NCBI RefSeq assembly: GCF_003633895.1
Contig: NZ_RBID01000002.1
Location: forward strand, 1 to 64,000
DNA from: Vogesella indigofera
Lineage (GTDB): Bacteria; Pseudomonadota; Gammaproteobacteria; Burkholderiales; Chromobacteriaceae
Direction: 5' to 3'
DNA: 64,000 bases
A program made the position numbers and the translations under genes. This document shows, in pieces, positions 4,697 to 59,848 of the stretch; the first letter of the stretch is position 1, and each line of letters begins with the position of its first letter. The notes under the pieces are model-generated. The model was given only the letters and a program-made list of their open reading frames with translations. It was not told where the DNA came from and ran no database searches.

Positions 4697-4736
4697 ATTG
4701 CGGCCAACCTTGCAGCAAGGTTGGCCGCAATTTTTT
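4697..4736 (+). terminator. Intrinsic terminator made of an inverted motif pair, after yicC
   Basis: Arms 4697-4713 and 4715-4731 (ATTGCGGCCAACCTTGC and its complement) form a 17-base-pair stem, followed by six T. It consists of one copy of the recurring motif in each orientation and lies at the convergent junction of yicC and the reductase gene. Confidence 0.9.
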
Positions 4737-4744
4737 AGCGCGGC

Positions 4745-5617
4745 TCAGTCGTTGTCCTGCCAGATCAGCCGTGCGATGGCGGAGGAATCCAGCTCGCCCT
4801 CGCCATTGGCCACCAGCTGGTCGATCAGGCCGGCAACACGCGCGGCCTCTGGCAGCTTGATGCCCAGCGACGCCGCGGTGTCCAGCACGATGCCCATGTC
4901 CTTCTGGTGCAGCTTGGCCTTGAAGCCCGGCGCGTAGTTGTCGTCGATCATGCGCTGACCGTGCACGTCCAGCACCCGGCTGCTGGCAAAGCCGCCCAGC
5001 AGCGCCTCGCGCACCGGCGCCGGGTCTACACCGCAAGCCTTGGCCAGCTTCATCACTTCCGCCACCGCCGCCACGCCGACGCCGACTGCGATCTGGTTGC
5101 AGGCCTTGGCCACCTGCCCGGCCCCGCTGTCGCCGATATGGGTGATGGTCTTGCCCATCGCCTGCAGTACCGGCCGCGCGGTGGCCAGCGCCGTCGCCTT
5201 GCCGCCGACCATGATGGTCAGCGTGCCGTTGATGGCGCCGACTTCACCACCGGACACCGGACAATCGAGGAAGTCGATGCCGCTGGCAGCCAGTTTGGCG
5301 GCGATCTCGCGCGCGCCGATCGGGGAAATGGTGCTCATGTCGACACACACCAGCCCCGGCCGCGCACCGTGCACCACGCCGTTCTCGCCCAGCAGCACGG
5401 CCTCGACGTCGGCGGTATCGGAGACATTGGTCACCAGCACCTCGACGTTGGCCGCCAGCGCCTGCGGGCAGTCCGCCCAATGGGCGCCCTGCGCCAGCAG
5501 CGGTTCGGCGCTCTCGCGCCGCCGAGCCCAGACCCAGACTTCATGTCCGGCCTTGAGCAGGTTTTCCACGCACGGGCGCCCCATGATCCCCAGACCGATA
5601 TACGCAACTTTCATCAT
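4745..5617 (-). CDS. NAD(P)-dependent beta-hydroxyacid dehydrogenase (GarR/3-hydroxyisobutyrate dehydrogenase family)
   Basis: Predicted reductase of short-chain beta-hydroxy acids (tartronate semialdehyde reductase or relative; exact substrate not determinable). The 290-residue protein has the Rossmann GLGIMG at 8-13, the substrate-binding DFLDCPVSGG at 115-124, and the catalytic Lys171 in GQVAKACNQ. Start preceded by AGGA. It is 39 bases downstream of the flagellar FlhB-like gene in the same direction, but has no evident flagellar role; it may be cotranscribed by position alone. Confidence 0.88.
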   Translation of the reverse strand: MMKVAYIGLGIMGRPCVENLLKAGHEVWVWARRRESAEPLLAQGAHWADCPQALAANVEVLVTNVSDTADVEAVLLGENGVVHGARPGLVCVDMSTISPIGAREIAAKLAASGIDFLDCPVSGGEVGAINGTLTIMVGGKATALATARPVLQAMGKTITHIGDSGAGQVAKACNQIAVGVGVAAVAEVMKLAKACGVDPAPVREALLGGFASSRVLDVHGQRMIDDNYAPGFKAKLHQKDMGIVLDTAASLGIKLPEAARVAGLIDQLVANGEGELDSSAIARLIWQDND

Positions 5618-5656
5618 GTTCCTAAGCAGAAAAATGCAAGCCGGCCACTCGCCGAC

Positions 5657-5977
5657 TCAGGATGGAGGCGGCTGGCGCTGTGCCAGCCACTGTTCGAAAT
5701 TCATGTCCTTGCCGGTAGCCTGGTGTTCGAGGAAATACAGGAAGGCGAGGATCTCGGCGACCGCACGATACAGCTCCGGCGGGATGTGATTGTCCATGTC
5801 CACCTGCATCAGCAGGTTGACCAGCTCCGGCGAGTCGTGCACGAAGACGCCGGCTTCCTTCGCCTGCTCGATGATGCGCTCGGCCATGCGGCCATAGCCC
5901 TTGGCCACCACTTTTGGCGCCGCGCTGTCCTCGCTGTAGCGCAGCGCGACCGCCGAACGGCGATGCTCAGGCTTCAT
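5657..5977 (-). CDS. FlhB C-terminal-domain homologue (EscU/YscU/HrcU family, stand-alone)
   Basis: A 106-residue protein matching only the cytoplasmic domain of the flagellar export switch FlhB. It opens with RRSAVALRY, the segment which in FlhB directly follows the self-cleaving NPTH motif, and continues KVVAKGYG, so it resembles the product of FlhB cleavage made as a separate gene; the NPTH itself is absent. The rest (HIPPELYRAVAEILAFLYFLE) matches the family. The ATG at 5977 overlaps the end of fliK by 11 bases, implying coupled synthesis with the hook-length/export-switch partner. No membrane segments. Confidence 0.9.
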   Translation of the reverse strand: MKPEHRRSAVALRYSEDSAAPKVVAKGYGRMAERIIEQAKEAGVFVHDSPELVNLLMQVDMDNHIPPELYRAVAEILAFLYFLEHQATGKDMNFEQWLAQRQPPPS

Positions 5978-7639: not shown

Positions 7640-7881
7640 GATCACGACTCCGGTAACACGGACACCACCTCGGCTCAGGCGAAGGTGGCCGTCCTGATGC
7701 GCTTTGACGCAGGCAGAGCAACGAGCGGCAGCGATGCCGACTCGCCGCGGGCCATCCCGACAACACGGTGCGGCACGGCAACACTGCTTTTACTATGGCA
7801 CGCAATCGGCAGGATAACAGCGTCGTTTGCAGGTTGGCCGCAATGGCAAAAGCCCCGCTCCACACCGAAAAACAGTGCCGG

Positions 7882-8632: not shown

Positions 8633-8660
8633 GATGAAGCCTTAATCGATGTTATCCAGT

Positions 8661-11197: not shown

Positions 11198-12649
11198 TTA
11201 ACGCAGCAGCGACAGTACTTGCTGTGGCAACTGGTTGGCCTGCGCCAGCATGGCGGTACCAGCCTGTTGCAGCACCTGATTACGGCTCAGTTTAGCTGTT
11301 TCTGCGGCAAAGTCGGTATCCTGAATACGGCTACGCGAGGCACTCAGGTTCTCCGACGAAGACTGCAGGTTGGAGATGGTGTTCTCGAAGCGGGACTGCA
11401 AGGCACCGAACTGGGCACGCTGGCCGTTGATCGCTTGCAATGCGGAGTCAACGATCTTGATCGCATTCTGCGAGTTGGCGAACGAAGTCACGTCCAACGA
11501 AGCCACGGTCTTCAGGGTCGACGAACCACCCAGCACCAGGCCGGAACCAGCGTCAGTCACCGAGAAGCTCTTGTCAGAGTCGAACACCACGGTACCGTTG
11601 GCGATGGTGGTGGCACCAGCAGCAGTAGCACCCGGAGCAGCAACCAGCGCCGGTGTAGTGCCAGTGTTGTTGTAAGTCGCCATTGTGATGTTGCCAGAAC
11701 CTGCCTGGTTGGCAAGCTGGATATCCGAACCGGTAGCGTTGGTCAGTTTGATACCGCCCAGCGACGAATCAAACTCTGCAGTCACACCGGTTTTGCCGCT
11801 GGCGGCGTTGATGGCATTGATCGCTTCGGAGTAGTCATCGGCGCTACTCACCGATGCGCCGGTACGGAACGAAACGGTCACCGCAGTAGCGTTGTCGGAA
11901 GTAATGTTCACCGCAAACGTGCCGCTGGCGGCCAAGGTCAGGTTCGACTCGGTTTTGGCGGAGGCAGTAACACCAGTCTGCGAGGTCAGCTTGTTAACGT
12001 TGGCCGCAATGGTCTTGGCGCTGTCGGTTGCCACAGTAGTGTACTTGGCCGAGCCCAACGAACCGGCAACGGTAATGTCTTTAGCTGCAACCACGTTGGT
12101 CGCGTTCTTACTAGCAGTACCCGCCACAGTGACGTTGTTGTTGCCGTAGTTGCTGGTGCGGAAGTTGGAACCGGTTGCCTGGATGGTCTGGTTGGCGTTG
12201 GCGCCGACCTGGAAGGTCAGGGTGCCGGACGAACCATCCAGCAGCTTCTGGCCGTTGAATTCGGTAGTCTGGGAAATACGGTCCAGTTCGGAGGTCAGCT
12301 GGGTCACTTCGGACTGCAAAGCCTGACGGTCGGAAGCCGAGTTGCTGGAGTTGGACGACTGTACCGCCAGTTCACGAACACGCTGCAGGATGTTACCAGC
12401 GGAAGACAGTGCGCCTTCAGCAGTCTGCGCCATCGACACGCCATCGTTGGCGTTGCGACGAGCCTGATCCATACCGCGAACCTGACCGCCCATGCGCTCG
12501 GAGATGGCCAGACCGGCGGCATCGTCTTTGGCGCTGTTGATGCGCAGACCGGACGACAGGCGCTGCAGCGAGGTGGACAAGGCGCTTTGGGAACCGGACA
12601 TATTACGCTGCGAGTTCAGCGAAGCCACGTTAGTGTTGATGGTCAGCAT
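11198..12649 (-). CDS. fliC: Flagellin
   Basis: Filament subunit of 483 residues. Conserved N-terminal D0/D1 ([50 protein letters not shown]) and C-terminal D1/D0 ([23 protein letters not shown] end) enclose a Thr/Ser/Ala-rich variable centre at about 160-390. No signal peptide, as expected for export through the flagellar channel. Strong AAGGAG site and a sigma-28 promoter upstream. A methylase gene (fliB) lies directly upstream, so lysines of this protein are likely methylated. One copy of the CGTTGGCCGCAA motif is at 11998-12009. Confidence 0.97.
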
Positions 12650-16437: not shown

Positions 16438-18930
<2,493 letters not shown>

Positions 18931-21011: not shown

Positions 21012-24000
21012 TCAGGCCGTTTCGCGCATTTTCAGCGCTTCGACGATGTCCACCGCCACGATGCGGCTGCAACCCTGCTCCTGCATGGTCACCCCCACCA
21101 GCTGCTCGGCCATTTCCATGGTCAGGCGGTTGTGGCTGATGTACAGGAACTGCGTGTGCGCCGCCATCTGCTTCACCAGATCGCAGAAGCGGCTGGTATT
21201 GGCGTCGTCCAGCGGCGCATCGACCTCGTCCAGCAGGCAGAACGGTGCCGGGTTGAGCGAAAACAGCGAGAACACCAGGCTCATCGCGGTCAGCGCCTTT
21301 TCGCCGCCGGACAGCAGGTGGATGGTGCTGTTCTTCTTGCCCGGCGGCTGGGCGATGATCTGGATACCGGCCGACAGCAGGTCGTCGCCGGTCAGCACCA
21401 GTTCGGCGCGGCCACCACCGAACAGCGTCGGGAAAAACTCGCTCATCTTGGTGTTGACCGCGTCGTAGGTGGTCTGCAGCATGTCGCGGGTTTCGCCGTC
21501 GATCCTGGCGATCGCCTCTTCCAGCGTCGCCATCGCCTGCAGCAGGTCGTCGGTCTGGCTGGCGAGGTAAGCGCCGCGCTTCTGCGCCTCTTCCAGCTCC
21601 TGCAGCGCGGCGAGGTTGACCGCGCCAAGGCCGTCGATGGCGCGCGCCAGGCGCGCGATTTCCGCCGCCAGCGCGTTGGGCTTCACCGCCTCGGACAGGT
21701 GCGGCAGCAGCGCCGCCTCGTCCGCCTCGGCGGTTTTCAGCTCCTCGTCGAAGCGCTCCACGTTCAGTCGCGCTTCCTGATGCTTCAACAGCCAGTCGGA
21801 ACGCGCCTCGCGCAGCGCCGGCAGCGCGGCGCTGATTTCCTGCTGCCGCTGCGTGGACTGGCGCAGGGTCTCGGTCAGCGCATTGAGCTGGTCGCGCGTT
21901 GCGGCCAACGTTTGCTCGCGCGTTTCGCGCAGCAGCAGTGCCTGCTGCAGCACCTCGTCCGGCGCTGCCTCTTCCACCGTTTCCGCTTCCATCGCCAGCG
22001 TTTCCAGGCGCTCGGCCAGCTGCAGATCACGGTCTTCCAGTTCGCGCGTGCGGCGCGCCAGCTCCGCCACCTTCTGCTCGGCGGTGTGCTGCGCCAGCTT
22101 GATCTCGTGCAGCATGCGCTCGGCGTCGCGCGTCTTGTTGCGCGCCAGCTCCAGCCCGGTTTCGGCGTTCAACCGCGCCAGACGCGCGTCTTCCAGCTGT
22201 TCGGCCAGTTCTTCCAGCTGCATCGCGTTTTCTTCGGCCAGCAGTTCGGCTTCAAGAATGGTTTCCTGCGCCGTGTCGCGCTCCTCGCGCAGACGCTGCT
22301 GTTCGGCGTGGATCGCCGCCAGCCGTGCGGCGCCCTGTCGCGCCGCCTGATCCAGCTTCACGTGTTCCAGCGTCACCGCGTTCAGCTCCGCCTCCAGCCG
22401 CGACACCGCACCCTTCTGTGCACGCACCGCCTCGGCCAGCATGCCCAGCATCGACGCCACGCTGTCGCGACGGCGCTGGGCGCTGTCGATCTGCGGCTGC
22501 ACCGCGGCCAACCTTGCCGCCGCCGCGTCGCGCGCCGCCTTGCGCGCCATCATGCCGTCGCCGCTATGGGCGGCGTTGAAGCGCACGCTGACCGCGCTGA
22601 CGCGGTGGCCGTCCGGCGTGATCCAGCATTCGCCGGCGGCCAGTTCGCCACGGCGGGCGATGGCATCGTCCAGCATATCGGCGCAGTAGACGCCGGCCAG
22701 CCAGTCGGCCAGCGCGGCGGCAAACGGCGCGTCGGCGCTGACCACAGCCAGCAGCGGCTGGCGGCCAGGGTTGGCCGCAACGGCCGGCGCCGGTGCGCAG
22801 TCGACCAGTGCCAGCGGCGCCGGCGGCAGAGCGCCGGGCAAGGCGGCGGCACGGGCGGCGAGGCTGTCGCCCAGCACCACTTCCACCGCGCTGCGCCACT
22901 GTTCGTCCACCTGCAGGCTTTGCCACAGCGCCGGCGCACCGTCCAGCTGCTGCGCCGCCAGCCAGCCGGCCAGCTGCTCGCCGGCAGCTTCGCGTGCCAG
23001 CACCGCGTCCAGCGCGGCGACTTCGGCCTCGGCGCGGGCGGCGTCGCTATTGAATTCGTGCAGCGTCTTGTCCAGCTGTTCGCGTTCGCTGGTGAGATCC
23101 GCCTGCTTGGCCTCGTCTGCGGCCAACCTTGCGCGCACCGCGTCCAGCGCCGCCTGCGCGCGCGCGACCTCGGCATGGGCCGCTTCCAGCACGCCGCTGT
23201 CGGGCAGGTTGAGATCGTGCAACTCGCGGCGCAGCGCGTCTTCGCGCCCGGCCAACTGCTCGATGCTGCGGCGCAGGTGCTCGCCCTGCTGCCGTGCCAG
23301 ATCGCGTTCACGGGTGAGGTTGGCGATCTGCGCCGTCATCTGCGCCAGGCGCTGGTCGGCGACGCGGAACGCGGCCTCGGCGCCGGGCAGGCCGTCGGCG
23401 CCGTCTTCCAGCCCCATCTGCGCCTCTTCCATGCGCATTTGCGCCTCTTCGCGCCGCGGCAGCCAGTCGTCCAGTTCGTACTCGACCTGGGTCTTCTGCT
23501 CCGCCAGCTGCTGGCGTTCGTTGCGGGCGCTGGCCAGATCGCGCTCCAGCCGCTCGCGGCTTTGCAGGCGGTGGCGCTGCTGCTCTTCCAGCCGCGCCAG
23601 CGTGGCATTGGCCTCGAACAGCGCCTGCTGCGCCTCGTGCACCGCATCGCTGGCGGCGTAGTGCGTCTCGCGCACCGTTTCCAGTTCAGTTTCCAGATGT
23701 GTGTGCGCCGCTTCCAGCGCGGTTTCTTCGGTTTCGATGCGCGCCAGTTCGCTGCGCGCGGCGGCCTCGCTGCACGCCGCTTCCTCGCGCCGCGCCAGCG
23801 CCAGCAGGTTCTGCTTGAAGGTCAGCGCGCCGCGCATGTCCTGATAGTTGGCCGCCACTTCCGCCTGCTCGGTGAGGCGCTCGACCTGGCGCTCCAGCTC
23901 CAGCTTGAGGTCGTCGATGCGAGTAAGGTTGTCGCGGGTGTCGGCGAGGCGGCTTTCGGTTTCGCGGCGGCGCTCCTTGTAGCGCGACACGCCGGCGGCC

Positions 24001-25655: not shown

Positions 25656-25690
25656 AAAAAAAGCCCGCTGCATGTGCAGGCGGGCTTTTT
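25656..25690. terminator. Bidirectional intrinsic terminator between ruvX and rbgA
   Basis: AAAAAGCCCGC (25658-25668) pairs with GCGGGCTTTTT (25680-25690) around a loop that can itself pair. A-run on one side and T-run on the other let it serve both convergent genes. Confidence 0.92.
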
Positions 25691-25698
25691 GTTTGCGC

Positions 25699-25720
25699 TT
25701 GCGGCCAACGTTGGCCGCAA
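25699..25720. repeat. 22-base perfect palindrome of the recurring motif at a convergent junction
   Basis: TTGCGGCCAAC followed directly by its complement. It stands next to, but separate from, the intrinsic terminator at 25656, so it is not needed for termination here; this argues for another function of the motif. Confidence 0.9.
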
Positions 25721-28623: not shown

Positions 28624-28649
28624 GCTTGCGGCCAACGTTGGCCGCAAGC
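28624..28649. repeat. 26-base perfect palindrome of the recurring motif at a convergent junction
   Basis: GCTTGCGGCCAAC followed directly by its complement, beginning right after the yciH stop. No T-tract adjoins it. It lies between yciH and the convergent etf-QO gene, which has its own terminator at 28767. Confidence 0.9.
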
Positions 28650-28766: not shown

Positions 28767-28798
28767 AAAAACGCCGCCAGCGGTCTGCTGGCGGCGTT
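28767..28798 (-). terminator. Intrinsic terminator after the ETF-QO gene
   Basis: On the minus strand AACGCCGCCAGC pairs with GCTGGCGGCGTT around five bases (arms 28787-28798 and 28770-28781), followed by more T. Confidence 0.88.
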
Positions 28799-31722: not shown

Positions 31723-31735
31723 GATGCTTCTCCTT

Positions 31736-31751: not shown

Positions 31752-31754
31752 CGC

Positions 31755-37563: not shown

Positions 37564-40500
37564 ATGATGAAAAAAATCAACCTGTCGGAATGGGCGCTGC
37601 GCAACGGCTCGCTGGTGCAGTACCTGATGGTGGTGCTGATGGTGGCCGGACTGTTCGCCTACACCCAGCTGGGACAGAAGGAAGACCCGGAATTCACCTT
37701 CAAGGCGATGATGGTGCGCGTGCTGTGGCCCGGCGCCACCGCGCTGGAGACCGAGCAGCAGGTCACCGACAAGATCGAGAAGAAGCTGCAGGAAATGGGC
37801 GAGCTGGAGTACGTGAAGAGCTACACCAAGCCGGGTGAAGCGCTGCTGATCCTGTCGATCCGCGAGGATGTGCCGCCCAAGAACGTGCAGCAACTGTGGT
37901 ACACGGTGCGCAAGAAACTCGGCGACATCCGCCACACCCTGCCCACCGACATCCGCGGCCCGTTCTTCAACGACGAGTTCGGCGACACCTTCGGCAACAT
38001 CTACGCCTTTACCGGCGACGGCTTCAGCTACGAAGAGGTGCGCCGCTACGTCGACGGTGTGCGCCAGGAGATCCTGCGCCTGCCCGACGTCGGCAAGGTG
38101 GACCTGATCGGCGAACAGGAAGAGCGCATCTACGTGACGCTGTCCAACGCCAAGCTGGCGGCGCTGCAGCTGGACGCGCGCACCATCTGGAGCGCGCTGG
38201 CGGAGCAGAACGCGATGACGCCGGCCGGCAATTACGACACCGCCAGCGACCGCATCTGGGTGCGCGTCTCCGGCAGCTACGGCTCGGTGGCGGCCATTGC
38301 CGACACCCCGCTCAGTGCCGGTGGCAAGAGTTTCCGTCTGGGCGATATCGCCACGGTCGAGCGCCAGTTCGTCACCCCGCCGTCGTTCGGCATGCGTTTT
38401 GACGGCAAGCCGGCGCTTGGTCTCGCCATCAGCATGAAACAGGGCGGCGACGTGCTGAAACTGGGTAACAACCTGCAGCTGCTGATGCAGGAAGTACAGA
38501 ACAAGCTGCCGGTCGGCATGCAGATCCACTCGGTGTCCGACCAGCCGCAGGTGGTGAAGAACGCGGTCGGCGAATTCATGAAGGTGCTGATCGAGGCGGT
38601 GGTGATCGTGCTGGCGGTGTGCTTCCTCAGCCTGGGCGTGCGCAACGGCATCGTGGTGGCGCTGTCCATCCCGCTGGTGCTGGCGATGACCTTCCTCGCC
38701 ATGTACCTGCTCGGCATCGACCTGCAGCGCATCTCGCTCGGCTCGCTGATCATCGCGCTGGGCCTGCTGGTCGACGACGCCATCATCGCGGTGGAAATGA
38801 TGGCGCTGAAGCTGGAACAGGGCTGGAACAAGTTCCAGGCCGCCACCTTTGCCTACACCAGCACCGCCTTCCCGATGCTGACCGGCACCCTGCTCACCGC
38901 GGCCACCTTCCTGCCGGTGGGCATGGCCCGCTCCAACGCCGGCGAGTACGTGTTCAGCCTGTTCTCGGTGGTCAGCATCGCGCTGCTGCTGTCGTGGATC
39001 GTGGCGGTGGTGTTCGTGCCCTACCTCGGCTACAAGCTGCTGCCGGAACACCACGCCGGCAGTGCGCACGAGGACGTCTACCACAAGCCGTTCTACCTGC
39101 GCTTCCGCGCCACGGTGGAGTGGTGCCTCGACCACCGCAAGACGGTGATCGCGCTGACCGCGGCCGCGTTCCTGCTGTCACTGGTGGCGTTCAAGCTGTT
39201 CGTGCAGCAGCAGTTCTTTCCCTCCTCCAACCGCGTCGAGCTGATGGTGGACATGTGGCTGCCGCAGGGCGCCAGCTACCAGGCCACCGAGGCCGAAGTA
39301 CGCAAGCTGGAGGCGCTGATCAAGGACGACCCGCACGTGGTCAGCACCACCGCCTACGTCGGCGGCGGCAGCCCGCGCTTCTACCTGCCGCTGGACCAGC
39401 AGCAGCAGCACCTGAACTATGCGCAGCTGATGGTGATGACGCGCGACGAAAAGGTGCGCGAAGACGTCAAGCACAAGCTGGAAACGCTGTTCGAGCGCGA
39501 CTTCCCGATGGTGCGCGGCCGCGTCACGCGGCTGGAGAACGGCCCGCCGGTCGGCTACGCGGTGCAGTTCCGCGTGATGGGCGAGGACCACGCCAAGGTG
39601 CGCAGCATTGCGGCCAACGTTGAAACGCTGTTGCGCGCCCATCCCGGTGCCCGCCACGTCAACATCGACTGGGGCGAGCAGGTGAAGGCGCTGCGGGTGG
39701 AGATCGACCAGGACAAGGCGCGGGTGCTGGGCGTCTCCAGCCAGTCGCTCAGCCGCCAGCTGCAGTTGCTGATCAGCGGCAGCACCGTCAGTGAATGGCG
39801 TGAAGGCGACCGCAGCATCGGCATCGTGGCGCGGCTGGACAACGCCGGCCGCGAGCAGGTGGACGCGCTGGGCAGCCTGATGGTGCAGACCGCCAGCGGC
39901 AAGTACGTGCCGGTGGCGCAGCTGGGCAGCATCAGCTACCAGCCGGAGGAAAGCATCATCTGGCGCCGCAACCGGCTGCCGACGGTGACGGTGCGCGCCG
40001 ATGCCGCCGACGGCGTGCAGGCCGCCGACATCTCCAAGGCGCTGTGGCCCAAGCTGCAGCAGCTGGAGAAGACGCTGCCGCTGGGCTACCACATCGAGCT
40101 GGGCGGCTCGCTGGAAGCGAGCCAGAACTCGCAGGGCGCGATCGCCAAGGTGACGCCGCTGATGCTGGTGGTGGTGCTGACGCTGCTGATGATCCAGCTC
40201 GGCAGCTTCCAGCGCACGCTGCTGGTGGTGCTGACCGCGCCGCTGGGACTGATCGGCGTCACGCTGACGCTGATCCTGTTCGGCGCGCCGTTCGGCTTTG
40301 TCGCGATGCTGGGGGTGATCGCGCTGTTCGGCATGATCATGCGCAACTCGGTGATCCTGGTCGACCAGATCGAGACCGACATCGGCGAGGGCATCGACCG
40401 CTTCGAGGCCATCGTCGGCTCCACCGTGCGCCGCTTCCGCCCGATCATGCTCACCGCGCTGGCGGCGATCCTGGCGATGATCCCGCTGTCGCGCAGCACC

Positions 40501-42043: not shown

Positions 42044-42077
42044 ATTGCGGCCAACCTTGGACAAGGTTGGCCGCAAT
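42044..42077 (-). terminator. Terminator made of an inverted motif pair between tolC-like and GT9 genes
   Basis: ATTGCGGCCAACCTT (42044-42058) and its complement (42063-42077) enclose four bases. The T-tract (GTTTTTG) lies on the minus-strand exit, so it best serves the glycosyltransferase cluster. Convergent junction. Confidence 0.85.
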
Positions 42078-42113: not shown

Positions 42114-43160
42114 CTACTCTTCCCCAGCCGCCTGTGGCAGCAAGTCATCGATTGCATCCACAACAGCCGGCACAGGAATATGGGCAACCTGCCAGTCCTG
42201 TTCGGAACCGGAGGTCAGCACCCGGTGCGGCACCTGCCACGGATACCAATGCTTGGTCTTTTTATCGAGATGCTCGAACAAGCCAACCACGCTGGCCCCG
42301 CTCCCTGCCGCGAGATGCAGACCGCCGCCATCCGAACACACCGCCAGATCGGCACAAGAAAATGCTGCCATCAACTCCTTGACCGTCCGGGTGGGATAAA
42401 ACACCAAACGCTCGTGCTCCGGGAACTGGCTGCGAATGTAATCCGCTTTCTCATCATCCCCCGGATGACGAGGATCATCGGCGGCGCCTGGCGCCCACAA
42501 CAACAGGAAATCCACGTCCCGCGACAAGCAGGTACGGATCACCTCGCAAAAATGCTCGACTGCCCAGACCCGGCTGTTCTCGCGGGCACTGATGTGCAAG
42601 GCGATAACCGGGCGCTGCCTGGTGGAAAAACGTCGGGCCAAGACATCAGGCACCACAACAGCAGGCAAATTCAGCCTGCCAGGAGCTTGAGTCACACCAA
42701 GCGGTAACAAAAGTTCGGCAAGACACTCTACTTCATGACGGAATACATGATCCCGCGTGAAGGGGATCGGGTAGTCCACGATGCCATCATAGTCTGTCCC
42801 CTCCGACACAAAACTGATCACATGTTTCGGTCTGGCGGCCTTTGCCAGACGTACGGCATTCTTGGGATAACCCGAGCCGGCCACAATCGCGTAATCAAAA
42901 TGCTCGCGCCGCAACGCAAGGTAGGTCATCAGCTTGCGCCAGATTACCCGCACAACCGAATCCCCCGCTCCGCGGTGCTTCAGTTTGGTATAGAAGTACA
43001 CGCCATCCAGCAGCGGGTGCCCATCCAGCACGTCCTTGTTGTAGTCATTGACCAGTGCATAGATTGCTGCTTGCGGATATTTTTCACGCAGAGCTGCTAT
43101 CAATGGCGTGGTACAAACCAGATCGCCAATATTGTCACGGCGTATCACCAAAATCTTCAT
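42114..43160 (-). CDS. Glycosyltransferase family 9 (heptosyltransferase-like) protein
   Basis: 348 residues with the GT9 opening ILVIRRDNIGDLVCTTPLIAALREKYP and the C-terminal CSDGGGLHLAAGSGASVVGLFE. Expected to transfer heptose or a related sugar from a nucleotide donor to the LPS core. Unlike the other three GT9 proteins here it lacks the C-terminal cysteine cluster. Start overlaps the O-antigen ligase stop (ATGA). Last gene of the cluster. Confidence 0.88.
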   Translation of the reverse strand: MKILVIRRDNIGDLVCTTPLIAALREKYPQAAIYALVNDYNKDVLDGHPLLDGVYFYTKLKHRGAGDSVVRVIWRKLMTYLALRREHFDYAIVAGSGYPKNAVRLAKAARPKHVISFVSEGTDYDGIVDYPIPFTRDHVFRHEVECLAELLLPLGVTQAPGRLNLPAVVVPDVLARRFSTRQRPVIALHISARENSRVWAVEHFCEVIRTCLSRDVDFLLLWAPGAADDPRHPGDDEKADYIRSQFPEHERLVFYPTRTVKELMAAFSCADLAVCSDGGGLHLAAGSGASVVGLFEHLDKKTKHWYPWQVPHRVLTSGSEQDWQVAHIPVPAVVDAIDDLLPQAAGEE

Positions 43161-44449
43161 GCCAGTTTTCCCGAAGAAGAGCCGGAACGGAGCACCACCT
43201 GCGACAGCAGCATGCCTGCCAGCATCATCAGTAACACCGCATTTGCCCACATGCCATTGGCAAACCCCACCAGCAAGAAGGCCGGGATGATGACCAACAG
43301 ACTGCTGGCAACCGGATGGCGTACCGTCTGCCGCCAAACTTGACGAAATGCCAGCCACAGTATCGCCAACAGGAATGACAGGTACACCAGCAAACCCAAC
43401 AAGCCGGTTTCCAGCGCCACCTGAAAGTACAGACTGTGAGGGTTGGCTTTGCCATACGGATATGCTCGTCCAGTGAAATATAAATAGGCAGAACGATTTC
43501 GTGGGTGAGTTCCAGCCTGCAGATACTTCAGTAACTGCTCATGCCGTGCCAGCAGTGCCAGCTTGCGCCAGCCGGGCCCATAACCAAGTACCGGCTGCTG
43601 GCGGATCAGAAAGTCGGTCGCAACCCAGATACCCTGGCGTTCCAGCAGAGCCGGATCCTGTTGGTAAGTGTCACTACGGAATGTGGAAGCATAGCGCTGC
43701 CACAGTTCAGGCTTGGCAGCAAATAGCCCTGCCGCTGAGATCACGCACCCGAGCAGCAATAGCAGGCTCTTACGCCACGAGCCGTTAAGCAGCAGCAACA
43801 ACAGCAGGCTGGCGACGATGACCAACAGTGGTGTCCGGCTCTGGTGCAACACCAGGTTCAGCATTTCCACACCCCACATCACCACCAGCAGCACGCGCCA
43901 ACGGCGCGACAGCCAGTCCTGCCCATATAGCAACAACACCGAAGTCAATGACAGATAGAACACCGCATCCATCGCATAGCCGCGCCGGTACGGTGCCAGC
44001 CAAGCCAGATCAAGGCCGTAATAAGCCAGCACCAATAACGAGCGCAGGGCAAAGCCCAGCACAAAGCCCAGCAGAATGATGCGAACCTGCTGCTCGCGAC
44101 GGATAAAGCTGCACGCCACCAGAAATACCAGCAACGGCTTCAGGTGGTCCTTCTTGAACTCGTTGAGGTTGTTGGCCAGCCAGTCGCCATTGAGCAGCAG
44201 CGAGACGACAAACACCAGTACCAGCAGCATAAACAGGCGGAATATCCCACTACGCCACGGCAGAGTTGGCCGCACGCACAGCAGCCAGCCAGTCCAAAGG
44301 ATGACAGCCATGAAAAAAGAGACATTCATGAGGCCGGTCAGCGCAGTCGAGGCCGAGGCAAAACAGAACAGAGCAATCAGGAAGAACAGCGGTTTCTCCA
44401 GCAGCGCCCCGTAGCGCGCCAGAGAGGAAGAAGGGCGAGTATCAGTCAT
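43157..44449 (-). CDS. waaL: O-antigen ligase/polymerase (WaaL-like)
   Basis: 430 residues with about eleven membrane helices and one large periplasmic loop (about 255-330) ending ANPHSLYFQVALETGLLGLL, the Wzy_C signature. Such proteins join O-antigen to lipid A-core, or polymerise O units; as it lies within a core glycosyltransferase cluster, ligation is more likely. A distinct GC-poorer, leucine-run-rich sequence. Overlaps both neighbours by a few bases. Confidence 0.85.
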   Translation of the reverse strand: MTDTRPSSSLARYGALLEKPLFFLIALFCFASASTALTGLMNVSFFMAVILWTGWLLCVRPTLPWRSGIFRLFMLLVLVFVVSLLLNGDWLANNLNEFKKDHLKPLLVFLVACSFIRREQQVRIILLGFVLGFALRSLLVLAYYGLDLAWLAPYRRGYAMDAVFYLSLTSVLLLYGQDWLSRRWRVLLVVMWGVEMLNLVLHQSRTPLLVIVASLLLLLLLNGSWRKSLLLLLGCVISAAGLFAAKPELWQRYASTFRSDTYQQDPALLERQGIWVATDFLIRQQPVLGYGPGWRKLALLARHEQLLKYLQAGTHPRNRSAYLYFTGRAYPYGKANPHSLYFQVALETGLLGLLVYLSFLLAILWLAFRQVWRQTVRHPVASSLLVIIPAFLLVGFANGMWANAVLLMMLAGMLLSQVVLRSGSSSGKLA

Positions 44450-45551: not shown

Positions 45552-46759
45552 GGTTTGCGCGCCGCCTCCGCCAGAATGGCCTCGGTACCGGCCACGTAGC
45601 GGGCGATGGTGTACTGCGCCTTGACCCGCACCTCCCCGGCCTGCCCCATGCGCTGACGCAGGCCGGCATCGGCCACCAGTTTAGCCAGCGCCTCGGCCAG
45701 CGCCGCGCTGTCGCCATACGGTACCAGCAGGCCGCTGTCGCCATCGGCGACCAGCTCCTGCGAGCCAACCACGCGTGAGGCCACTACCGGCTTGGCCAGC
45801 AGCATCGCCTCCAGCAGCACCCGCGGCAGGCCCTCGCTTTGCGACACCAGCACGCAGACGTCCATCGCCGCGGTATAGGCCAGCGGCTGCGGCTGGAAGC
45901 CGGCAAACACCACCTGCCCGGCAATGCCGAGGCTTGCGGCCAACCTTTCCAGTTCGGCGCGCTGCGGGCCGTCGCCGACCAACAGCAGGCGCACCGGCAG
46001 CTGGCGCCGCACCAGTTCGGCCGTCGCCTGCAGCAAGAAGCGCAGCCCCTTGCGTTCCACCAGTTGCCCGACCGCACCCAGCACGATTTCGTGCTCGCGA
46101 CCTACCAGCAACGTCCCCCGCACTGCAGCGCCATCCGGCAAGGTCTGCGCCGGGTCGATGCCGTTGAGCACCGCCACGCACTTGTCCGGCTGCACGCCGT
46201 GACGAACCAGTGCCCCGACCACGCCGTTGGAGACACCGATCACCTTGCTGGCCACCCGGTTGACGATGGCGGCATCGGCGGCATCCATCAGCGGCTCGAT
46301 GCGGCAATGCTGCACTACCGGCACGCCGCTCTGTTCGGCCGCCAGATAGCCTTCCAGGTTGGAACGCGGCTGGTTGTTCATGTACAGCAGGTCAAAGCGC
46401 TCGTCACGCAGCTGGCGCGCAATCGCGGCGGCATTGGGCGCAATGCGCCAGGCGTGCTCGATGCGCTTGACCAGGGCCTGGCGCCAGGGCTTATGCCAGG
46501 CTAGCAGGCCACGCGCCAGTTCCTTGGCCAGCTTGGCCCACAGCGGCTGCTTGCGCTGCGGTAACAGCCGCAGCGGCATGCCGATAGCGGCCAGCTCGCG
46601 CGACAGCGTGCTCTGGCCCTTGCTGTAATCGCGGTAAAACAGGCAGGTGATGTCAAAACGCTCGCGATCGATGCGCTTGAGCAGCTCGAACAGGCTATTG
46701 GTCCCGCCGCCCCATTCATTGCCGGTATCCAGCAACAGGATTCTGGTTCGGGTTGTCAT
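45548..46759 (-). CDS. Glycosyltransferase family 4 protein
   Basis: 403 residues with the GT-B fold: N-terminal LLLDTGNEWGGGTNSLFELL, and nucleotide-sugar site EGLPRVLLEAMLLAKPVVAS (E-x7-E pattern). Retaining transferase of LPS core or O-antigen; sugar unknown. Overlaps both neighbours with ATGA junctions. Motif copy at 45934 encodes part of ERLAASLG. Confidence 0.9.
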   Translation of the reverse strand: MTTRTRILLLDTGNEWGGGTNSLFELLKRIDRERFDITCLFYRDYSKGQSTLSRELAAIGMPLRLLPQRKQPLWAKLAKELARGLLAWHKPWRQALVKRIEHAWRIAPNAAAIARQLRDERFDLLYMNNQPRSNLEGYLAAEQSGVPVVQHCRIEPLMDAADAAIVNRVASKVIGVSNGVVGALVRHGVQPDKCVAVLNGIDPAQTLPDGAAVRGTLLVGREHEIVLGAVGQLVERKGLRFLLQATAELVRRQLPVRLLLVGDGPQRAELERLAASLGIAGQVVFAGFQPQPLAYTAAMDVCVLVSQSEGLPRVLLEAMLLAKPVVASRVVGSQELVADGDSGLLVPYGDSAALAEALAKLVADAGLRQRMGQAGEVRVKAQYTIARYVAGTEAILAEAARKP

Positions 46760-47901
46760 TGAGAATTCTCCGGTTGCAACGACAACTGGTGCTCACAGGC
46801 GGCCAGCACTTCGTCAACCGTAATGTTGTCCATGCACGGCGGCGCCGCATATCGGCAGCGTTTGCCGAGGCAGGGTTCGCAGGTGCGGTGTTTCTGGATC
46901 ACGATATGGCGTTGCAGCTCGGTGGTCGGGCCGGAGCCGTGCCAGTGCGCGGCGGCAAACAGGCCGACGATCGGCGTGCCCACCGCAATCGCCATGTGCA
47001 TGATGCCGGTGTCCGGCGTCACCAGACAGGCAAAACGCTGTACCAGCGCCGGCATCCGCGTCAGCGGCAACTGCCCTGCCGTCACCACCAGCCGCGCGTC
47101 GTTGACCGCGCCGGCAACGGCATCGGCCAGCGCCCGCTCCTGTGGCGAGCCGGTCACCACGATGCGTAAGCTTGGGTTGGCCGCAAGCAGGCGCTGCGCC
47201 AGCTCGGCATAGCGCTCCGGCCGCCAGCGCCGGCTGGCGGTCGAGGCGCCTACCTGGAAACCGATCACCGGCTGCTGCGGGGTGATGCCGTATTGCTGTT
47301 GCAGCCAGCCAGCCACCGCATCGCGGTTCTGTGCCGATACCGGCAGGATCATGTGCTTGTCGCTGCCGTCTGCACCGGCCAGCGCGGCCACGGCCAGGCG
47401 CTGGTCAATGCCGTGGGTGAAATCGCGCCAGTTGCTGACCTGCTGGTGATTGCTGAGCAAAAAACGGAAACGGCTGTTGTTGGGCAGCTTGAAGCGCCAG
47501 CGGGCACCGCTCAGATACGCCAGCGGCGTGGCCTGCGGCTCGTTGGCATGCAGAATGGCCACCAGATCGAAACGCTCGCGGCGCAGTGCCAGCGCCAGAC
47601 GCACAAAACGGCGATAGCCGCCGTGGTAGTCGATCAGGTCGTCGATGTCGGGATTATCGGCAAACAGACCGTGATACGGCGCGTTGACCAGCAGCACGAT
47701 GCGCGCCTGCGGGTAGCGCTGGCGCAGGCTGCGGATGGCCGGTGTGGATAACAGCGTGTCGCCGATGGCGGTGCAGGACATCACCAGGATGCGGCGGATG
47801 GCCACGGTACCCAGCTCGGCCGGGTCCGGCGCGCGGCGGTCGAAACGGCGGGCCAAGCCCAGCCCCCACGCCAGCAGGTTTTCACGGATGCGGGTGCCCA
47901 T
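46756..47901 (-). CDS. Glycosyltransferase family 9 protein
   Basis: 381 residues; GT9 core ILVMSCTAIGDTLLSTPAIRSLRQ, VTPDTGIMHMAIAVGTPIVGLF and C-terminal cysteine cluster CEPCLGKRCRYAAPPC. Probable heptosyltransferase. Starts in a TAATG overlap with the deacetylase stop. Motif copy at 47174 within LLAANPSL. Confidence 0.88.
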   Translation of the reverse strand: MGTRIRENLLAWGLGLARRFDRRAPDPAELGTVAIRRILVMSCTAIGDTLLSTPAIRSLRQRYPQARIVLLVNAPYHGLFADNPDIDDLIDYHGGYRRFVRLALALRRERFDLVAILHANEPQATPLAYLSGARWRFKLPNNSRFRFLLSNHQQVSNWRDFTHGIDQRLAVAALAGADGSDKHMILPVSAQNRDAVAGWLQQQYGITPQQPVIGFQVGASTASRRWRPERYAELAQRLLAANPSLRIVVTGSPQERALADAVAGAVNDARLVVTAGQLPLTRMPALVQRFACLVTPDTGIMHMAIAVGTPIVGLFAAAHWHGSGPTTELQRHIVIQKHRTCEPCLGKRCRYAAPPCMDNITVDEVLAACEHQLSLQPENSQ

Positions 47902-51631: not shown

Positions 51632-52753
51632 TCACAGCAAGCGCCGGTAGCAAGCCAGCAAACGGCCGGCCATCTGCTCCAGCGTGAGGTCGGCGGTACT
51701 GGCCCGCGCCGCCGCGGCCAAGCTTGGCCACTCGGCACGGCTGGCCAGCCATTGGCCGAGCTGCTGGCGCAGGGTGGCGCCGTCCAGCGCATCGGCCACC
51801 CAGCCGTTGTCGCCGTCGCGGATCAGCTCGGCGGCACCGCACTGCTGCGTGGTGAACACCGGCAAACCGCAGGCCAGCGCTTCGACACAGACATTGGGAA
51901 ACGGGTCATACAAGGTCGGCAGGATGAAGGCGTCGGCCATACCGTAAAACGGCTTGACGTCGTTTTGCGCGCCGGCAAAACGTACACGCGACGCGATGCC
52001 CAGCGTTGCGGCCAACCTTTGGTACTGCGCGGCGTGCTTGTCCTTGCCGACAATCAGCAGCTGCACCTCGGGGTGCGGCACGATGGCCTGCAGCGCACGC
52101 GCCACGCCCTTGCGCTCGAAACCGGAGCCAACGTACAGCAGCAACGGTGCCGCTGGCGGAATCTGCCACTGTGCACGCATCGTGGCACGGTGTTCGCGCA
52201 GCGACGGATGGAAAGCCGCGGTATCGACGCCATTGTAAATCACGGCAAAACGCGCGTCCGGCAAGCCGAAGTAGTGCTGGATCTCGCGCTTCACCATCTG
52301 CGAATTGCAGATCACCGTTTTCAGGCGCGGATGCAGGAACATGCGCCGCTCCATCCACTGCACGTAGTGGTGGTAGGGATTCAGTTGCAAGGCAATGCGG
52401 CCCCAGCGCGACAGCACCCGGCGACGCAGTTGCAGCCAGTGGCGGTGCACGCCGTCGCCGGCGCGGTAGATGTCGCAGCCGGCGATGCGCTCGTGCGACT
52501 GCACCAGCTCGAAGCCTTCGCGCTGCCAGATCCGGCGCGCGGCGCAGGCAAAGCCCCAGTCGCGCCAGACGCTGCCGAGATAGAAAGGGTTGGCCGCAAT
52601 GGCGCGCACACCGGAAAGCGATTCCCACTTGCGCGCGATCAGGTTCACTTCCAGTCCACCCTGCGCCGACAGCGCCGACAGCGCACGGCTGACAAAACGC
52701 TCGGCGCCGCCGGCCGGATTGTATTTCTGCCGCACGATCACCAGTCGCGTCAT
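51632..52753 (-). CDS. waaG: Glycosyltransferase family 4, WaaG-like
   Basis: 373 residues with the opening VIVRQKYNPAGGAERFVSRAL and donor site PTLYDPFPNVCVEALACGLPVF, both close to LPS glucosyltransferase I (WaaG), which adds glucose to heptose II. Starts in an ATGA overlap with waaQ. Two good motif copies (52006, 52584). GalU at 15.5 kb would supply UDP-glucose. Symbol given by similarity of arrangement with waaQ. Confidence 0.8.
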   Translation of the reverse strand: MTRLVIVRQKYNPAGGAERFVSRALSALSAQGGLEVNLIARKWESLSGVRAIAANPFYLGSVWRDWGFACAARRIWQREGFELVQSHERIAGCDIYRAGDGVHRHWLQLRRRVLSRWGRIALQLNPYHHYVQWMERRMFLHPRLKTVICNSQMVKREIQHYFGLPDARFAVIYNGVDTAAFHPSLREHRATMRAQWQIPPAAPLLLYVGSGFERKGVARALQAIVPHPEVQLLIVGKDKHAAQYQRLAATLGIASRVRFAGAQNDVKPFYGMADAFILPTLYDPFPNVCVEALACGLPVFTTQQCGAAELIRDGDNGWVADALDGATLRQQLGQWLASRAEWPSLAAAARASTADLTLEQMAGRLLACYRRLL

Positions 52754-57794: not shown

Positions 57795-57974
57795 GGAATG
57801 CTCCTGTAGCTGACCATGGCAGAATACTCCAGCCGGCGCCGGTTGGCGATGCCCGCCCTCGGCACTACGCCCTGCAGCGGATATCACCGGCCATGGCATT
57901 CAGGTACTATGCTTCAAACATTATTCCGGATTTGCCATTGCCCGCCGCGCGGCCATGGCTCGCAGGAGCACAAC

Positions 57975-59642
57975 GTGTTCGCCCAAGCCACTCTCGAAAC
58001 CGTCCTCAGCGCGCTGCCGGCCGGTTACCTGCTGCTTGACCTGTCGCGACAGGTCGTCTTCGTCAGCGAGCGTTTCAGCATCGCCTGCCACGGCAACCCG
58101 CTGCCCACCGTCGGCAGCCCGCTGCCGGCCACGCTGCTGCCGCAAGCGGTGCAGCAGCGCCTTGATCAGCCCGACAACAAGGGACTGACGCTGCCGGCGC
58201 ACGGCCTGCTGCTGGAGTGGCTGGTCACGCCGCTGCGCGACGGCTGGCTGATCAGCGTGCGCGAGGACCGTCATGCCTTCCGCACTCTGGTCGACAATTC
58301 ACCGGACATCATCACCCGCTACGACCTCGAGCTGCGCTGCCGCTTCATCAACAACACGCTGAGCAACTTCTCGCCGACACCGGCAGCGGAACACATCGGC
58401 CGCACGCTGGAAGAACGGCGCCTGCCCGCGCAGCTGAAGGATGCCATCCGCCACAATGCGCAGCAGGTGATCGCCAGCGGCAAGCCGCAGCGTTTCATCA
58501 GCGAGCTGAGCCTGCCGCAGCGGCTCTACGTGTTCGAGTCGAGGCTGCTGCCGGAGTTCGACGACGCCGGCCAGCTGCAGTCGCTGCTCAGCATCGACCG
58601 CGACATCAGCGAGCAGCACGCCACCCGGCTGTGGGAAGCCGACGAGAACCGGCTGCTGGAGATGATTGCCAACGACCGGCCGCTGCAGGAAGTGATGGGC
58701 TGGACCTGCCAGATGATCGAGAACCAGCTCAGTGGCGCGATGTGCAGCATCATGCTGCTGGACGAAGCCGGCGAACGGCTATACCTGGCGGCGGCGCCAT
58801 CGCTGGCCAGCGAATACAAGGAGGCGATCGACGGCCTGCGCATTGGTGAAGGCATCGGCTCCTGCGGCACCGCCGCGCAGCGCGGCGAGATGGTGATCGT
58901 CAGCGACATCGCCAGCGATCCGCTGTGGCAGGACTACCGCGAGCTGGCCGCCGCTCACCGGCTGCACGCCTGCTGGTCGCTGCCCATCCTGGCGCAGGAC
59001 GGCAAGGTGCTCGGCACCTTCGGCCTCTACCACGACCGCCCCTGCGCGCCGGATTCGCAAGCACTGGACATCGTGCGCCGCACCTCGCACCTGATGGCGA
59101 TTGCCATCCAGCAGGAGCAGCGCGCCACCGCGCTGTACCGGCTGGCGACGCAGGACGGTCTGACCGGCCTTGCCAACCGCCGCCACTTCCTCGACCTCGC
59201 CTCGCAGCGTTTCAAGGAGGCGCGCTACCTCGGCAAGCCGTTCAGCCTGCTGATGATGGACATCGACCACTTCAAGCGCGTCAACGACGGCCACGGCCAC
59301 GAGGGCGGCGACGTGGTGCTACAGGCCTTCGCCCAGTGCGTGAAGAGCACGCTGCGCGCCAGCGACCTGGTGTGCCGCATGGGCGGCGAGGAGTTTGCCG
59401 CCATCCTGCCCGATACCCCGGCCAGCGAGGCGCTGGTGGTGGCGAAACGGCTGCGCAACGCCATCGCCGCGCTGCCGATCGCGCATCAGGACCACACCAT
59501 CCCGATCACGGTCAGCATCGGCGTCGCCTCGCTGTCGCCGGCCTGCCGCGAGCTGAGCGAGCTGATCCGCCACGCCGACCAGGCGCTGTACCAGGCCAAG
59601 GCCAAGGGCCGCAACCGCGTCTGCGTCGCCGAGTCGCTGTAA
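57975..59642 (+). CDS. Diguanylate cyclase with PAS and GAF domains
   Basis: Predicted c-di-GMP synthase. 555 residues: N-terminal PAS-like part, PAS (about 95-215, RTLVDNSPDIITRYDLEL), GAF (about 230-375, GSCGTAAQRGEMVIVSDIASDPLW) and GGDEF (about 385-550) with active-site GGEEF and DGLTGLANRRHF. No membrane helix, so cytosolic. No inhibitory-site RxxD four residues before GGEEF is seen (the segment is ASDLVCRMGGEEF). Start is GTG at 57975 after AGGAG; ATG at 57908 is possible. Confidence 0.92.
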   Translation: MFAQATLETVLSALPAGYLLLDLSRQVVFVSERFSIACHGNPLPTVGSPLPATLLPQAVQQRLDQPDNKGLTLPAHGLLLEWLVTPLRDGWLISVREDRHAFRTLVDNSPDIITRYDLELRCRFINNTLSNFSPTPAAEHIGRTLEERRLPAQLKDAIRHNAQQVIASGKPQRFISELSLPQRLYVFESRLLPEFDDAGQLQSLLSIDRDISEQHATRLWEADENRLLEMIANDRPLQEVMGWTCQMIENQLSGAMCSIMLLDEAGERLYLAAAPSLASEYKEAIDGLRIGEGIGSCGTAAQRGEMVIVSDIASDPLWQDYRELAAAHRLHACWSLPILAQDGKVLGTFGLYHDRPCAPDSQALDIVRRTSHLMAIAIQQEQRATALYRLATQDGLTGLANRRHFLDLASQRFKEARYLGKPFSLLMMDIDHFKRVNDGHGHEGGDVVLQAFAQCVKSTLRASDLVCRMGGEEFAAILPDTPASEALVVAKRLRNAIAALPIAHQDHTIPITVSIGVASLSPACRELSELIRHADQALYQAKAKGRNRVCVAESL

Positions 59643-59804
59643 GCGCCTGTTCACGATCGGCTGCAACTGATCTCTACGGGGGCGATACTGGCTTAAAAAC
59701 GGCTTCGGCATGCTTGTTTATATCTGGATAAACGCCGCTTCCCCAGCCGTTTTCGCCTTGTCTCGCGCGAGCTCGTGAGCACGCGCTAAGCGGCGCGATT
59801 GCAA

Positions 59805-59848
59805 AAAAGGTTGGCCGCAACAGCGTGCGCTGTTGCAGCCAACCTTTT
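59805..59848. terminator. Bidirectional terminator made of an inverted motif pair
   Basis: AAAAGGTTGGCCGCAACAGCG (59805-59825, written as two parts AAAAGGTTGGCCGCAA and CAGCG) pairs with 59828-59848 with a single mismatch (the right copy reads GCAGCCAACC). T-runs on both exits. Convergent junction between the GGDEF gene and polA. The 160 bases before it (59643-59804) hold nothing recognisable. Confidence 0.88.

Follow-up and report, generated by a model that had tools for sequence, protein, structure and literature searches.

Neisseria and Haemophilus recognise their own DNA in uptake by means of short labels. To our knowledge, and within the passages of the literature cited here (PMC3630211, PMC1852404, PMC4906244, PMC13020248, PMC10715097, PMC2397512, PMC3868556 and PMC12061091 included), self-specific DNA uptake guided by a genomic word has been described in two families only. 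In the Neisseriaceae the DNA uptake sequence (DUS) exists as GCCGTCTGAA and variant dialects (Frye 2013, PMC3630211), with about 1900 copies of the 10-mer per genome in N. meningitidis (PMC3630211). The DUS receptor is the minor pilin ComP (PDB 5hz7, 2nba, 2m3k), and the DD region of Neisseria ComP contains two disulphides, that is, four cysteines (PMC4906244). In the Pasteurellaceae the word is the USS AAGTGCGGT, which is abundant and also forms inverted pairs in terminators (Kingsford 2007, PMC1852404); according to PMC4906244, this family lacks a ComP homologue.

Judged from its sequence and distribution, the word described here in Vogesella indigofera is very probably a DUS, one dialect of a set with the core CGGCCAAC that occurs in part of the Chromobacteriaceae. 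It resembles the Neisseriaceae DUS in copy number, in its presence on both strands, in forming lineage dialects around a common core, in its inverted pairs at the 3' ends of genes, and in the presence of a ComP-family pilin in the genome. It differs in that its core is CGGCCAAC, without the CTG core of the Neisseriaceae, and in belonging to another family, in which the dialects are patchy and most ComP homologues lack a second cysteine pair. With the Pasteurellaceae USS it shares the abundance and the inverted pairs, some of which may act as terminators, but both the word and the bacterial class are different. The Neisseria DUS itself can be ruled out, as GCCGTCTGAA has only 3 copies in the V. 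indigofera genome.

The window analysed is a stretch of 64,000 nucleotides of this genome (contig NZ_RBID01000002.1, positions 1 to 64,000). The word reads approximately (T)TGCGGCCAAC(C/g)TTG, roughly 12-14 bp, and the window holds 97 matches with at most two mismatches, compared with 36.5 +/- 5.8 in 100 shuffles (maximum 53). A preliminary description had placed two facing copies at each of six convergent gene junctions; using our own gene calls (our own coding model, with long ORFs filled in; 9.7% of bases noncoding), which likewise give six such junctions, we find facing arms with 0-1 mismatch at all six. Its statement that clean pairs are absent from other junctions, apart from the one at 1033-1068, also holds: a pair is present in 1 of 19 tandem spacers of 40-1000 bp and in none of the 4 divergent ones. 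That pair has the RNase PH gene (1114-1830, minus strand) and a DDE transposase as neighbours. The pair near 31736 is degenerate, as described, and was left out of the pair counts; whether it lies in a spacer or inside gene 30529-31776 hinges on the choice of start codon. Separate terminator-like hairpins are present beside the pairs at 25699 and 28624, again as described. The inverted pairs, to which no strand is assigned, are:

1033-1068: tandem junction, just beyond the 3' end of the RNase PH gene; one mismatch per arm; -31.1 kcal/mol, z -7.7
4697-4731: convergent junction; plus-strand stem with a T-rich tail; exact arms at 4698 and 4720; RNA stem -28.2 kcal/mol, z -6.1
25699-25720: convergent junction; no spacer between the arms (ACGT loop); exact arms at 25699 and 25710; adjoins a separate terminator-like hairpin at 25663-25681
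28624-28649: convergent junction, immediately 3' of a stop codon; no T tail of its own; exact arms at 28626 and 28637; separate terminator-like site at 28770-28798, minus strand
31735-31756: degenerate pair, tandem junction or just within the start of the next gene; 0 and 2 mismatches
34029-34067: convergent junction; long stem; arms at 34036 and 34050, one exact and one with 1 mismatch; -33.8 kcal/mol, z -7.9
42044-42077: convergent junction; exact arms at 42045 and 42066; -26.2 kcal/mol, z -7.7
59805-59848: convergent junction at the polA 3' end; arms at 59810 and 59833, one exact and one with 1 mismatch; minus strand -38.2 kcal/mol, z -6.0

Single exact copies lie at:

7833-7843, minus strand: in a tandem spacer
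11999-12009, minus strand: within a gene
16833-16843, plus strand: within a gene
21899-21909, plus strand: within a gene
22770-22780, minus strand: within a gene
29386-29396, minus strand: within a gene
37411-37421, minus strand: within a gene
39608-39618, plus strand: within a gene
45934-45944, plus strand: within a gene
47176-47186, minus strand: within a gene
52006-52016, plus strand: within a gene
52589-52599, minus strand: within a gene
61174-61184, minus strand: within polA

Genome-wide, the 11-mer has 917 copies, 460 and 457 on the two strands, and the reversed word, used as a control, has 2. In 864 kb (the window plus 40 sampled stretches), TGCGGCCAAC ranks first among over-represented 10-mers, counting words with at least 20 copies, at about 560 per Mb. 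The conserved span is about 14 bp, with little beyond it. The core occurs at 592 sites: 373 hold a single copy within a gene, 91 a single copy in a spacer, and 128 belong to pairs. With 464 copies unpaired, the inverted pair is ruled out as the basic unit.

The pairs are unevenly distributed among junction types. In the 864 kb a pair is present in 37 of the 106 convergent spacers, in 29 of the 249 tandem ones and in none of the 96 divergent ones; the convergent count is 36/106 without the window gene 42114-43358 (minus strand), which was set by hand. The perfect association from which the preliminary description deduced a selected or actively maintained element thus does not hold, while the maintained look does: the check that it proposed, run on a quarter of the genome, finds convergent junctions richer in pairs than tandem ones (Fisher p = 9e-7). 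Since the 40 stretches outside the window give 31/100 convergent, 28/230 tandem and 0/92 divergent, the six out of six in the window is a lucky draw on a real trend. If pairs tracked single copies, about 6.5 would be expected in divergent spacers, where there are none (Poisson 0.0015). The comparison that the preliminary description drew with the inverted DUS pairs of Neisseria was apt, the same tail-to-tail enrichment being reported in Kingsford 2007 (PMC1852404). The synteny check that it called for, made at the polA junction alone, finds the 3'-end pair in place, with differing loops, in V. fluminis, V. margarita and V. alkaliphila; the wider comparison of words with their flanks covers 5-6 sites in each of five non-independent comparisons, which is too small to decide on in-place conservation. 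In 80 kb samples of other word carriers, inverted pairs are clearly in excess only in G328 (8 vs 1.0 expected) and weakly so in G331 (3/0.5), G338 (2/0.8), G339 (2/0.3) and G347 (2/0.7), and the Gulbenkiania sample of this size shows no excess (0/0.5).

Could codon and amino-acid usage by itself produce the word? Intragenic copies do prefer frames reading AAN or LAA, but third-order composition predicts 6.0 copies in the 864 kb where 485 are found, changing one letter at any of the eight inner positions gives words with 0-16 copies each, close to or at the chance level, and spacers carry single copies at a higher density (0.61-1.49 per kb) than genes do (0.48 per kb), so that we give this origin practically no credence. 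A site for a chromosome-maintenance protein (KOPS, Chi, a nucleoid or segregation site) has rather more in its favour, though we still consider it improbable. The copies run to many hundreds, and they are spaced more evenly than chance (CV 0.846 vs 0.980 +/- 0.050 in 40 stretches, a value reached in 1 of 1000 simulations). They are also thin in low-GC3 genes, at 1.8-1.9 per 10 kb for GC3 below 0.7 vs 4.0-4.2 at GC3 of at least 0.8, a difference that might reflect scarcity in horizontally acquired DNA but is confounded by composition because the word is G+C rich; five of the 40 stretches, two of which were inspected, have fewer than 7 copies. Against a maintenance site, unpaired copies have no leading-strand bias in 41 stretches (176/189, with the G-rich strand as proxy for the leading strand), and 164 lie on the G-rich strand vs 201 (p 0.06, 41 stretches); moreover, close pairs (at most 60 bp apart) are inverted in 60 cases and direct in 2, and the word varies by lineage. 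Such an excess of facing pairs and such lineage-wise variants are atypical of KOPS-, Chi- and nucleoid-type sites.

The placement of the pairs would also suit a word that is a terminator building block only, a preferred stem that selection for 3'-end termination has spread. Pairs cluster past stop codons, they are missing from divergent spacers, their stems are strong, and T tails are more frequent than in controls, with at least 5 T in 12 nt on 39 of 105 sense sides vs 11%, though 8 of 31 antisense sides of tandem pairs have them too. Yet most core copies are single and the largest class lies within genes, only 9 of 91 strict hairpin terminators are built on the word, two of the window pairs adjoin other terminator-like hairpins, and dialects differing by one or two letters between lineages are not expected of a terminator stem. 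We thus agree with the preliminary description that termination alone is insufficient, and regard this explanation as very unlikely. Inverted pairs between genes and past stop codons are likewise what a REP/BIME-like element, or another selfish palindromic repeat that a transposase mobilises, would leave behind. REP elements are longer and intergenic, whereas here conservation fades beyond about 14 bp and 373 of the 592 core sites are single copies in genes rather than confined to spacers; a repeat of this kind we find scarcely credible.

The reading of the word as a DUS draws on its great excess as a perfect word, on both strands and both within genes and between them, on its even spacing and its thinness in low-GC3 genes, and on the relatives as well. 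The Vogesella word is present in 13 of 13 Vogesella genomes, and TTCGGCCAAC or CTCGGCCAAC in ten relatives at 183-2168 copies; the words differ by one or two letters between genera around the common core CGGCCAAC. One carrier, Pseudogulbenkiania ferrooxidans 2002, has 1104 copies of its dialect word and is among five Chromobacteriaceae genomes that Frye 2013 (PMC3630211) reported as having no obvious DUS. The dialects are patchy: 23 of 61 family genomes carry one, and 38 have none of TGCGGCCAAC, TTCGGCCAAC and CTCGGCCAAC in bulk. Outside the family the dialect words are near background; applied to two genomes from a different family, a scan of the same type recovers their known DUS. A fourth word, CTCGGCAAAC, was hinted at in Chromobacterium by an 80 kb sample, but whole genomes give at most 58 copies and it was rejected. 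A polA tree (60 of the 61 genomes, G303 missing, plus 3 outgroups) intermixes carriers and non-carriers, with 6 presence/absence changes by Fitch; because several deep nodes are supported at only 27-76, the loss count is only a suggestion. The words TGCGGCCAAC, TTCGGCCAAC and CTCGGCCAAC were not found in print among the matches listed in the open-licence literature, although Table S1D of Frye 2013, a list of 10-mers over-represented in the five genomes, may print them.

A candidate receptor is encoded 30 kb outside the window, where V. indigofera has a gene for a ComP-like minor pilin. The ComP_DUS domain (PF16732) scores 45.9 bits in the Vogesella protein and 64.3 bits in that of P. ferrooxidans, the curated cut-off being 27.3. 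For the P. ferrooxidans homologue, to which the fold comparison applies, ComP is the best PDB match both by sequence (E 4e-13) and by fold; the Vogesella protein was compared by sequence, and its top PDB matches are other pilins, aligned through the N-terminal helix, with ComP (2nba) matching over the globular part. In 49 of 57 genomes the best ComP match and polA share a contig and are no more than 35 kb apart. These matches come from a profile built on 13 homologues, among them Vogesella, Aquitalea and Chromobacterium sequences, which its scores favour; some Aquitalea-genus genomes have paralogues scoring as high as 125 bits, and the g139 genomes, with the lowest best matches (83-127 bits), are less certain.

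Cysteines, loop and pI were compared in the ComP homologues of 49 of the 61 genomes; those left out are the 4 g136 genomes, which have no clear homologue, 7 of the Chromobacterium genus and 1 of the Aquitalea genus. In 46 of the 49 the soluble part contains two cysteines, in 2 it contains three and in 1 four, and because nearly all thus have two rather than four, the two-disulphide DD region of Neisseria ComP is not found in them. At one loop column, K or R occurs in 22 of 23 dialect genomes vs 0 of 26 others examined, a contrast confounded by clade. Mean pI does not separate word users from the others (7.2 vs 7.4), and net charge likewise has no effect. A ComP homologue alone is no predictor of the word: all 19 Chromobacterium-genus and all 10 Aquitalea-genus genomes have one, yet among them a dialect is present in just a single genome, of the Aquitalea genus. 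ComEC gave no match in two word-carrying Vogesella genomes, G348 (330 contigs) and G349 (88% complete); this search says little on competence because 10 of the 14 control genomes, E. coli among them, were positive as well.

We suggest that a putative ComP-like minor pilin on a competence type IV pilus favours DNA bearing the word, so that imported and recombined fragments would keep re-seeding it. Two facing copies would form a strong hairpin in the transcript. Downstream of stop codons such pairs may be retained, serving as terminators if a T tract comes next and possibly, in other cases, as hairpins at RNA 3' ends, and promoter regions may be kept free of them; convergent junctions, having two 3' ends and no promoter, would therefore gather them. 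As for the history, we tentatively propose, at somewhat less than an even chance, that uptake-word recognition by ComP predates the split between Neisseriaceae and Chromobacteriaceae, and that orthologous receptors adopted an entirely different word (core CGGCCAAC, not CTG) with dialects of its own (TG in Vogesella, TT in Pseudogulbenkiania, CT in another genus); the system would have been lost several times (in Chromobacterium, in the greater part of the Aquitalea genus and in two other genera), with altered, broken or missing ComP genes remaining.

If the word is indeed a DUS, it would represent a third set of such words, in environmental relatives of Neisseria, and the DUS/ComP partnership would either have an older origin or have arisen anew. 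The TG, TT and CT words, together with the word-free genomes, would then form, in organisms that lend themselves to laboratory work, a natural series for working out how a pilin reads DNA.

All six convergent junctions of the window do hold facing copies of the short word, approximately (T)TGCGGCCAAC(C/g)TTG, four pairs being exact and two carrying one mismatch in one arm. With our own gene calls, a pair (inverted copies) is found in 6/6 convergent, 1/19 tandem and 0/4 divergent spacers of 40-1000 bp in the window, and RNA folding predicts strong stems for the six convergent pairs as well as for a pair at 1033-1068; word matches with up to two mismatches number 97, versus 36.5 +/- 5.8 in shuffled sequence. 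The preliminary description called this association perfect. In a sample covering 864 kb of the 3.62-Mb genome, made up of the window and 40 further 20-kb stretches, 37/106 convergent spacers (40-1000 bp) have a pair, compared with 29/249 tandem and 0/96 divergent ones (p = 9e-7 for convergent vs tandem, p = 1e-4 for tandem vs divergent); had pairs simply tracked single-copy density, the tandem rate would predict ~6.5 divergent spacers with one. Leaving the window out gives 31/100, 28/230 and 0/92, and the order is unchanged for exact 10-mer pairs in both spacer-length classes split at 150 bp (convergent 15/57 and 14/49, tandem 10/157 and 16/92, divergent 0/49 and 0/47). The convergent trend is thus real, while its perfection does not hold genome-wide; six of six was a lucky window.

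The unit is the single word, not the pair. In an unbiased ranking of 8- to 12-mers with at least 20 copies, the word or its parts come first; TGCGGCCAAC has 485 copies in the 864 kb, against 6.0 expected, and the conserved span is ~14 bp with little outside it. Of 592 core sites (594 less two close to stretch ends), 128 belong to inverted pairs; the single copies number 373 within genes and 91 in spacers. Over the whole genome the 11-mer has 917 copies, 460 and 457 on the two strands, against 2 for the reversed word. Each single-letter variant at the eight inner 10-mer positions is present 0-16 times, which is at or close to chance, while the first base tolerates variation (C 54, G 51) and the last tolerates G (35). 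Words are spaced more evenly along the DNA than random, and no strand polarity was seen. They are sparse in low-GC3 genes, and five of the 40 stretches hold fewer than seven copies, composition being a confounder for both. Two low-copy stretches were inspected, with the same confounder: C9:20001-40000 of this genome (54% G+C, one copy in 20 kb) has a C5 methylase gene and a helicase gene, plus an integrase-core match slightly below the Pfam cut-off, and the second, with two copies, has metal-efflux and YqaJ recombinase genes.

Exact copies up to 60 bp apart are inverted in 60 cases and direct in 2, and arm spacings concentrate at 0, 2-3 and 10-12 bp, giving hairpins whose arms are entire words and whose loops are short. 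A T-rich tail follows 39/105 sense sides and, in tandem pairs, also 8/31 antisense sides; for control positions the figure is 11%. Strict hairpin terminators built on the word make up only 9 of 91 in the sample. The pairs would thus act as RNA at the 3' ends of transcripts: those followed by a T tract would terminate transcription, and the others may be stabilising hairpins. The same tail-to-tail enrichment is described for uptake words of N. meningitidis in the part of Kingsford 2007 (PMC1852404) consulted, and passages of the TerminatorNet report place uptake words within terminators of Neisseriaceae and Pasteurellaceae (PMC13020248).

At the polA 3' end, 18 relatives were set against the window. 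The pair is retained, with different loops, in V. fluminis, V. margarita and V. alkaliphila, whose polA proteins are 93-95% identical to that of the window. V. urethralis, V. aquatica and one MAG have a single copy adjoining another hairpin, and Paludibacterium denitrificans has a single copy of its own related word; in the remaining relatives no word was seen at that place.

Among 300 genomes of the order, more than 14 copies of the 11-mer occur only in the three of genus g1, and within the Chromobacteriaceae all 13 Vogesella genomes have 349-917 copies, versus 0-15 in the other 48. Related words, first spotted when 80 kb was sampled from one or two representatives of each genus, were then counted on whole genomes.

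Copies of related words in Chromobacteriaceae genomes
TTCGGCCAAC: strain JH1-16, 2168, whole genome
TTCGGCCAAC: Paludibacterium denitrificans, 1851, whole genome
TTCGGCCAAC: G074, one of ten genomes of the Aquitalea genus, 1368, whole genome
TTCGGCCAAC: Gulbenkiania mobilis, 1245, whole genome
TTCGGCCAAC: Pseudogulbenkiania ferrooxidans 2002, 1104, reversed-word control 9
TTCGGCCAAC: two further genomes of the genus of P. ferrooxidans 2002, 893 and 183
TTCGGCCAAC: Crenobacter oryzisoli, 579, whole genome
TTCGGCCAAC: remaining family genomes, at most 78
CTCGGCCAAC: two genomes of genus g137, 1940 and 1590; others at most 165

With the Vogesella word these make three dialects, set apart by one or two letters placed before a common CGGCCAAC. 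One is present in bulk in 23 of 61 family genomes (carriers); none of the three is in the Chromobacterium genus (19/19), genera g136 (4/4) and g139 (6/6) or 9/10 genomes of the Aquitalea genus. Outside the family, copy numbers stay near background across 150 genomes of the order (93 at most). The Neisseria DNA uptake sequence (DUS) was recovered in another family, presumably Neisseriaceae, with 1863 and 2499 copies (2 in a third genome), so the scan works. G074 is the sole carrier among the ten genomes of its GTDB genus, and a polA tree places it, with weak support, apart from the nine other members examined. A palindrome, GCTTAAGC, is a second abundant word in 80 kb of P. denitrificans (G338; stretches L073, L074, L093 and L094), with 40 copies vs 1.9 expected; GCTTAAGCA has 26 vs 0.5. 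A sub-dialect of the Vogesella word is possible in genomes G343, G345-G349 and G351, with 349-557 copies of the 11-mer; in G347 the 10-mer reaches 538 per Mb, versus 555 in the window's genome, and the preceding T is not preferred.

Matches to Pfam ComP_DUS, the family of the DUS receptor pilin ComP, occur in 61/61 genomes, 60 above cut-off, partly via other pilins. With a more specific profile built from 13 homologues, the best match reaches at least 83 bits in 57/61; the four genomes of g136, without a dialect, reach at most 68.1 bits. In 49 of these 57 genomes this match shares a contig with polA and is no more than 35 kb from it; in five it is on another contig and in three 65-230 kb off. 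In the window's genome the homologue occupies C11:94166-94570 on the minus strand, 30 kb beyond the window. For the P. ferrooxidans homologue, ComP is the best PDB match by sequence and also by predicted fold (mean pLDDT 87.5); the Vogesella homologue matches ComP 2nba over the globular part, its top PDB matches being other pilins via the N-terminal helix. Two cysteines are present in the soluble part of 46/49 homologues; two others have three and one has four, the number in Neisseria ComP according to a passage of PMC4906244. The two-cysteine form counts against full ComP membership. All genomes of the Chromobacterium (19/19) and Aquitalea (10/10) genera keep the homologue, nearly all without a dialect. 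At one loop column K or R is found in 22/23 carriers vs 0/26 other genomes examined, a contrast confounded by clade; mean pI does not differ between carriers and non-carriers. G074 (comP at stretch L227) has ANTDAG as in other carriers and T instead of K at the loop column. In a g139 genome without a dialect (G332, stretch L240), the match has one in-frame TGA. The homologues of G343, G345-G349 and G351 score lower in the 13-homologue profile, which includes high-copy rows only, but so does that of G350, a genome with 865 word copies. ComEC/Rec2 matches occur in 59/61 genomes, the two without being word-carrying Vogesella, and in 10/14 control genomes; ComEC is thus weak evidence of competence.

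Those two carriers, together with the mixed pair excess seen when other carriers were sampled at 80 kb (clear in G328, with 8 vs 1.0 expected, weak in four more and lacking in Gulbenkiania), slightly reduce our confidence in the uptake-sequence reading and, a little more, in the further reading that uptake-word recognition by ComP predates the split of Neisseriaceae and Chromobacteriaceae. Frye 2013 (PMC3630211), in the parts consulted, reported that five such genomes, NH8B and two Chromobacterium among them, had no evident DUS; it also reported no ComP by BLAST in C. violaceum and placed the DUS origin after the split from that species. Its Lutiella nitroferrum 2002 is P. ferrooxidans 2002, with 1104 copies of TTCGGCCAAC here; the supplement, as described there, lists over-represented 10-mers of those genomes and may print the words, not taken as uptake words. 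In the open-licence literature searched, no description of an uptake word from Chromobacteriaceae was found. The word is best explained, by a wide margin, as part of an uptake-sequence system and, judged from sequence, would promote DNA uptake; the inverted pairs at convergent junctions are a known side-use of uptake words. Apparently new are the word and its dialects, the family that carries them and the ComP relatives, most of which have two cysteines.
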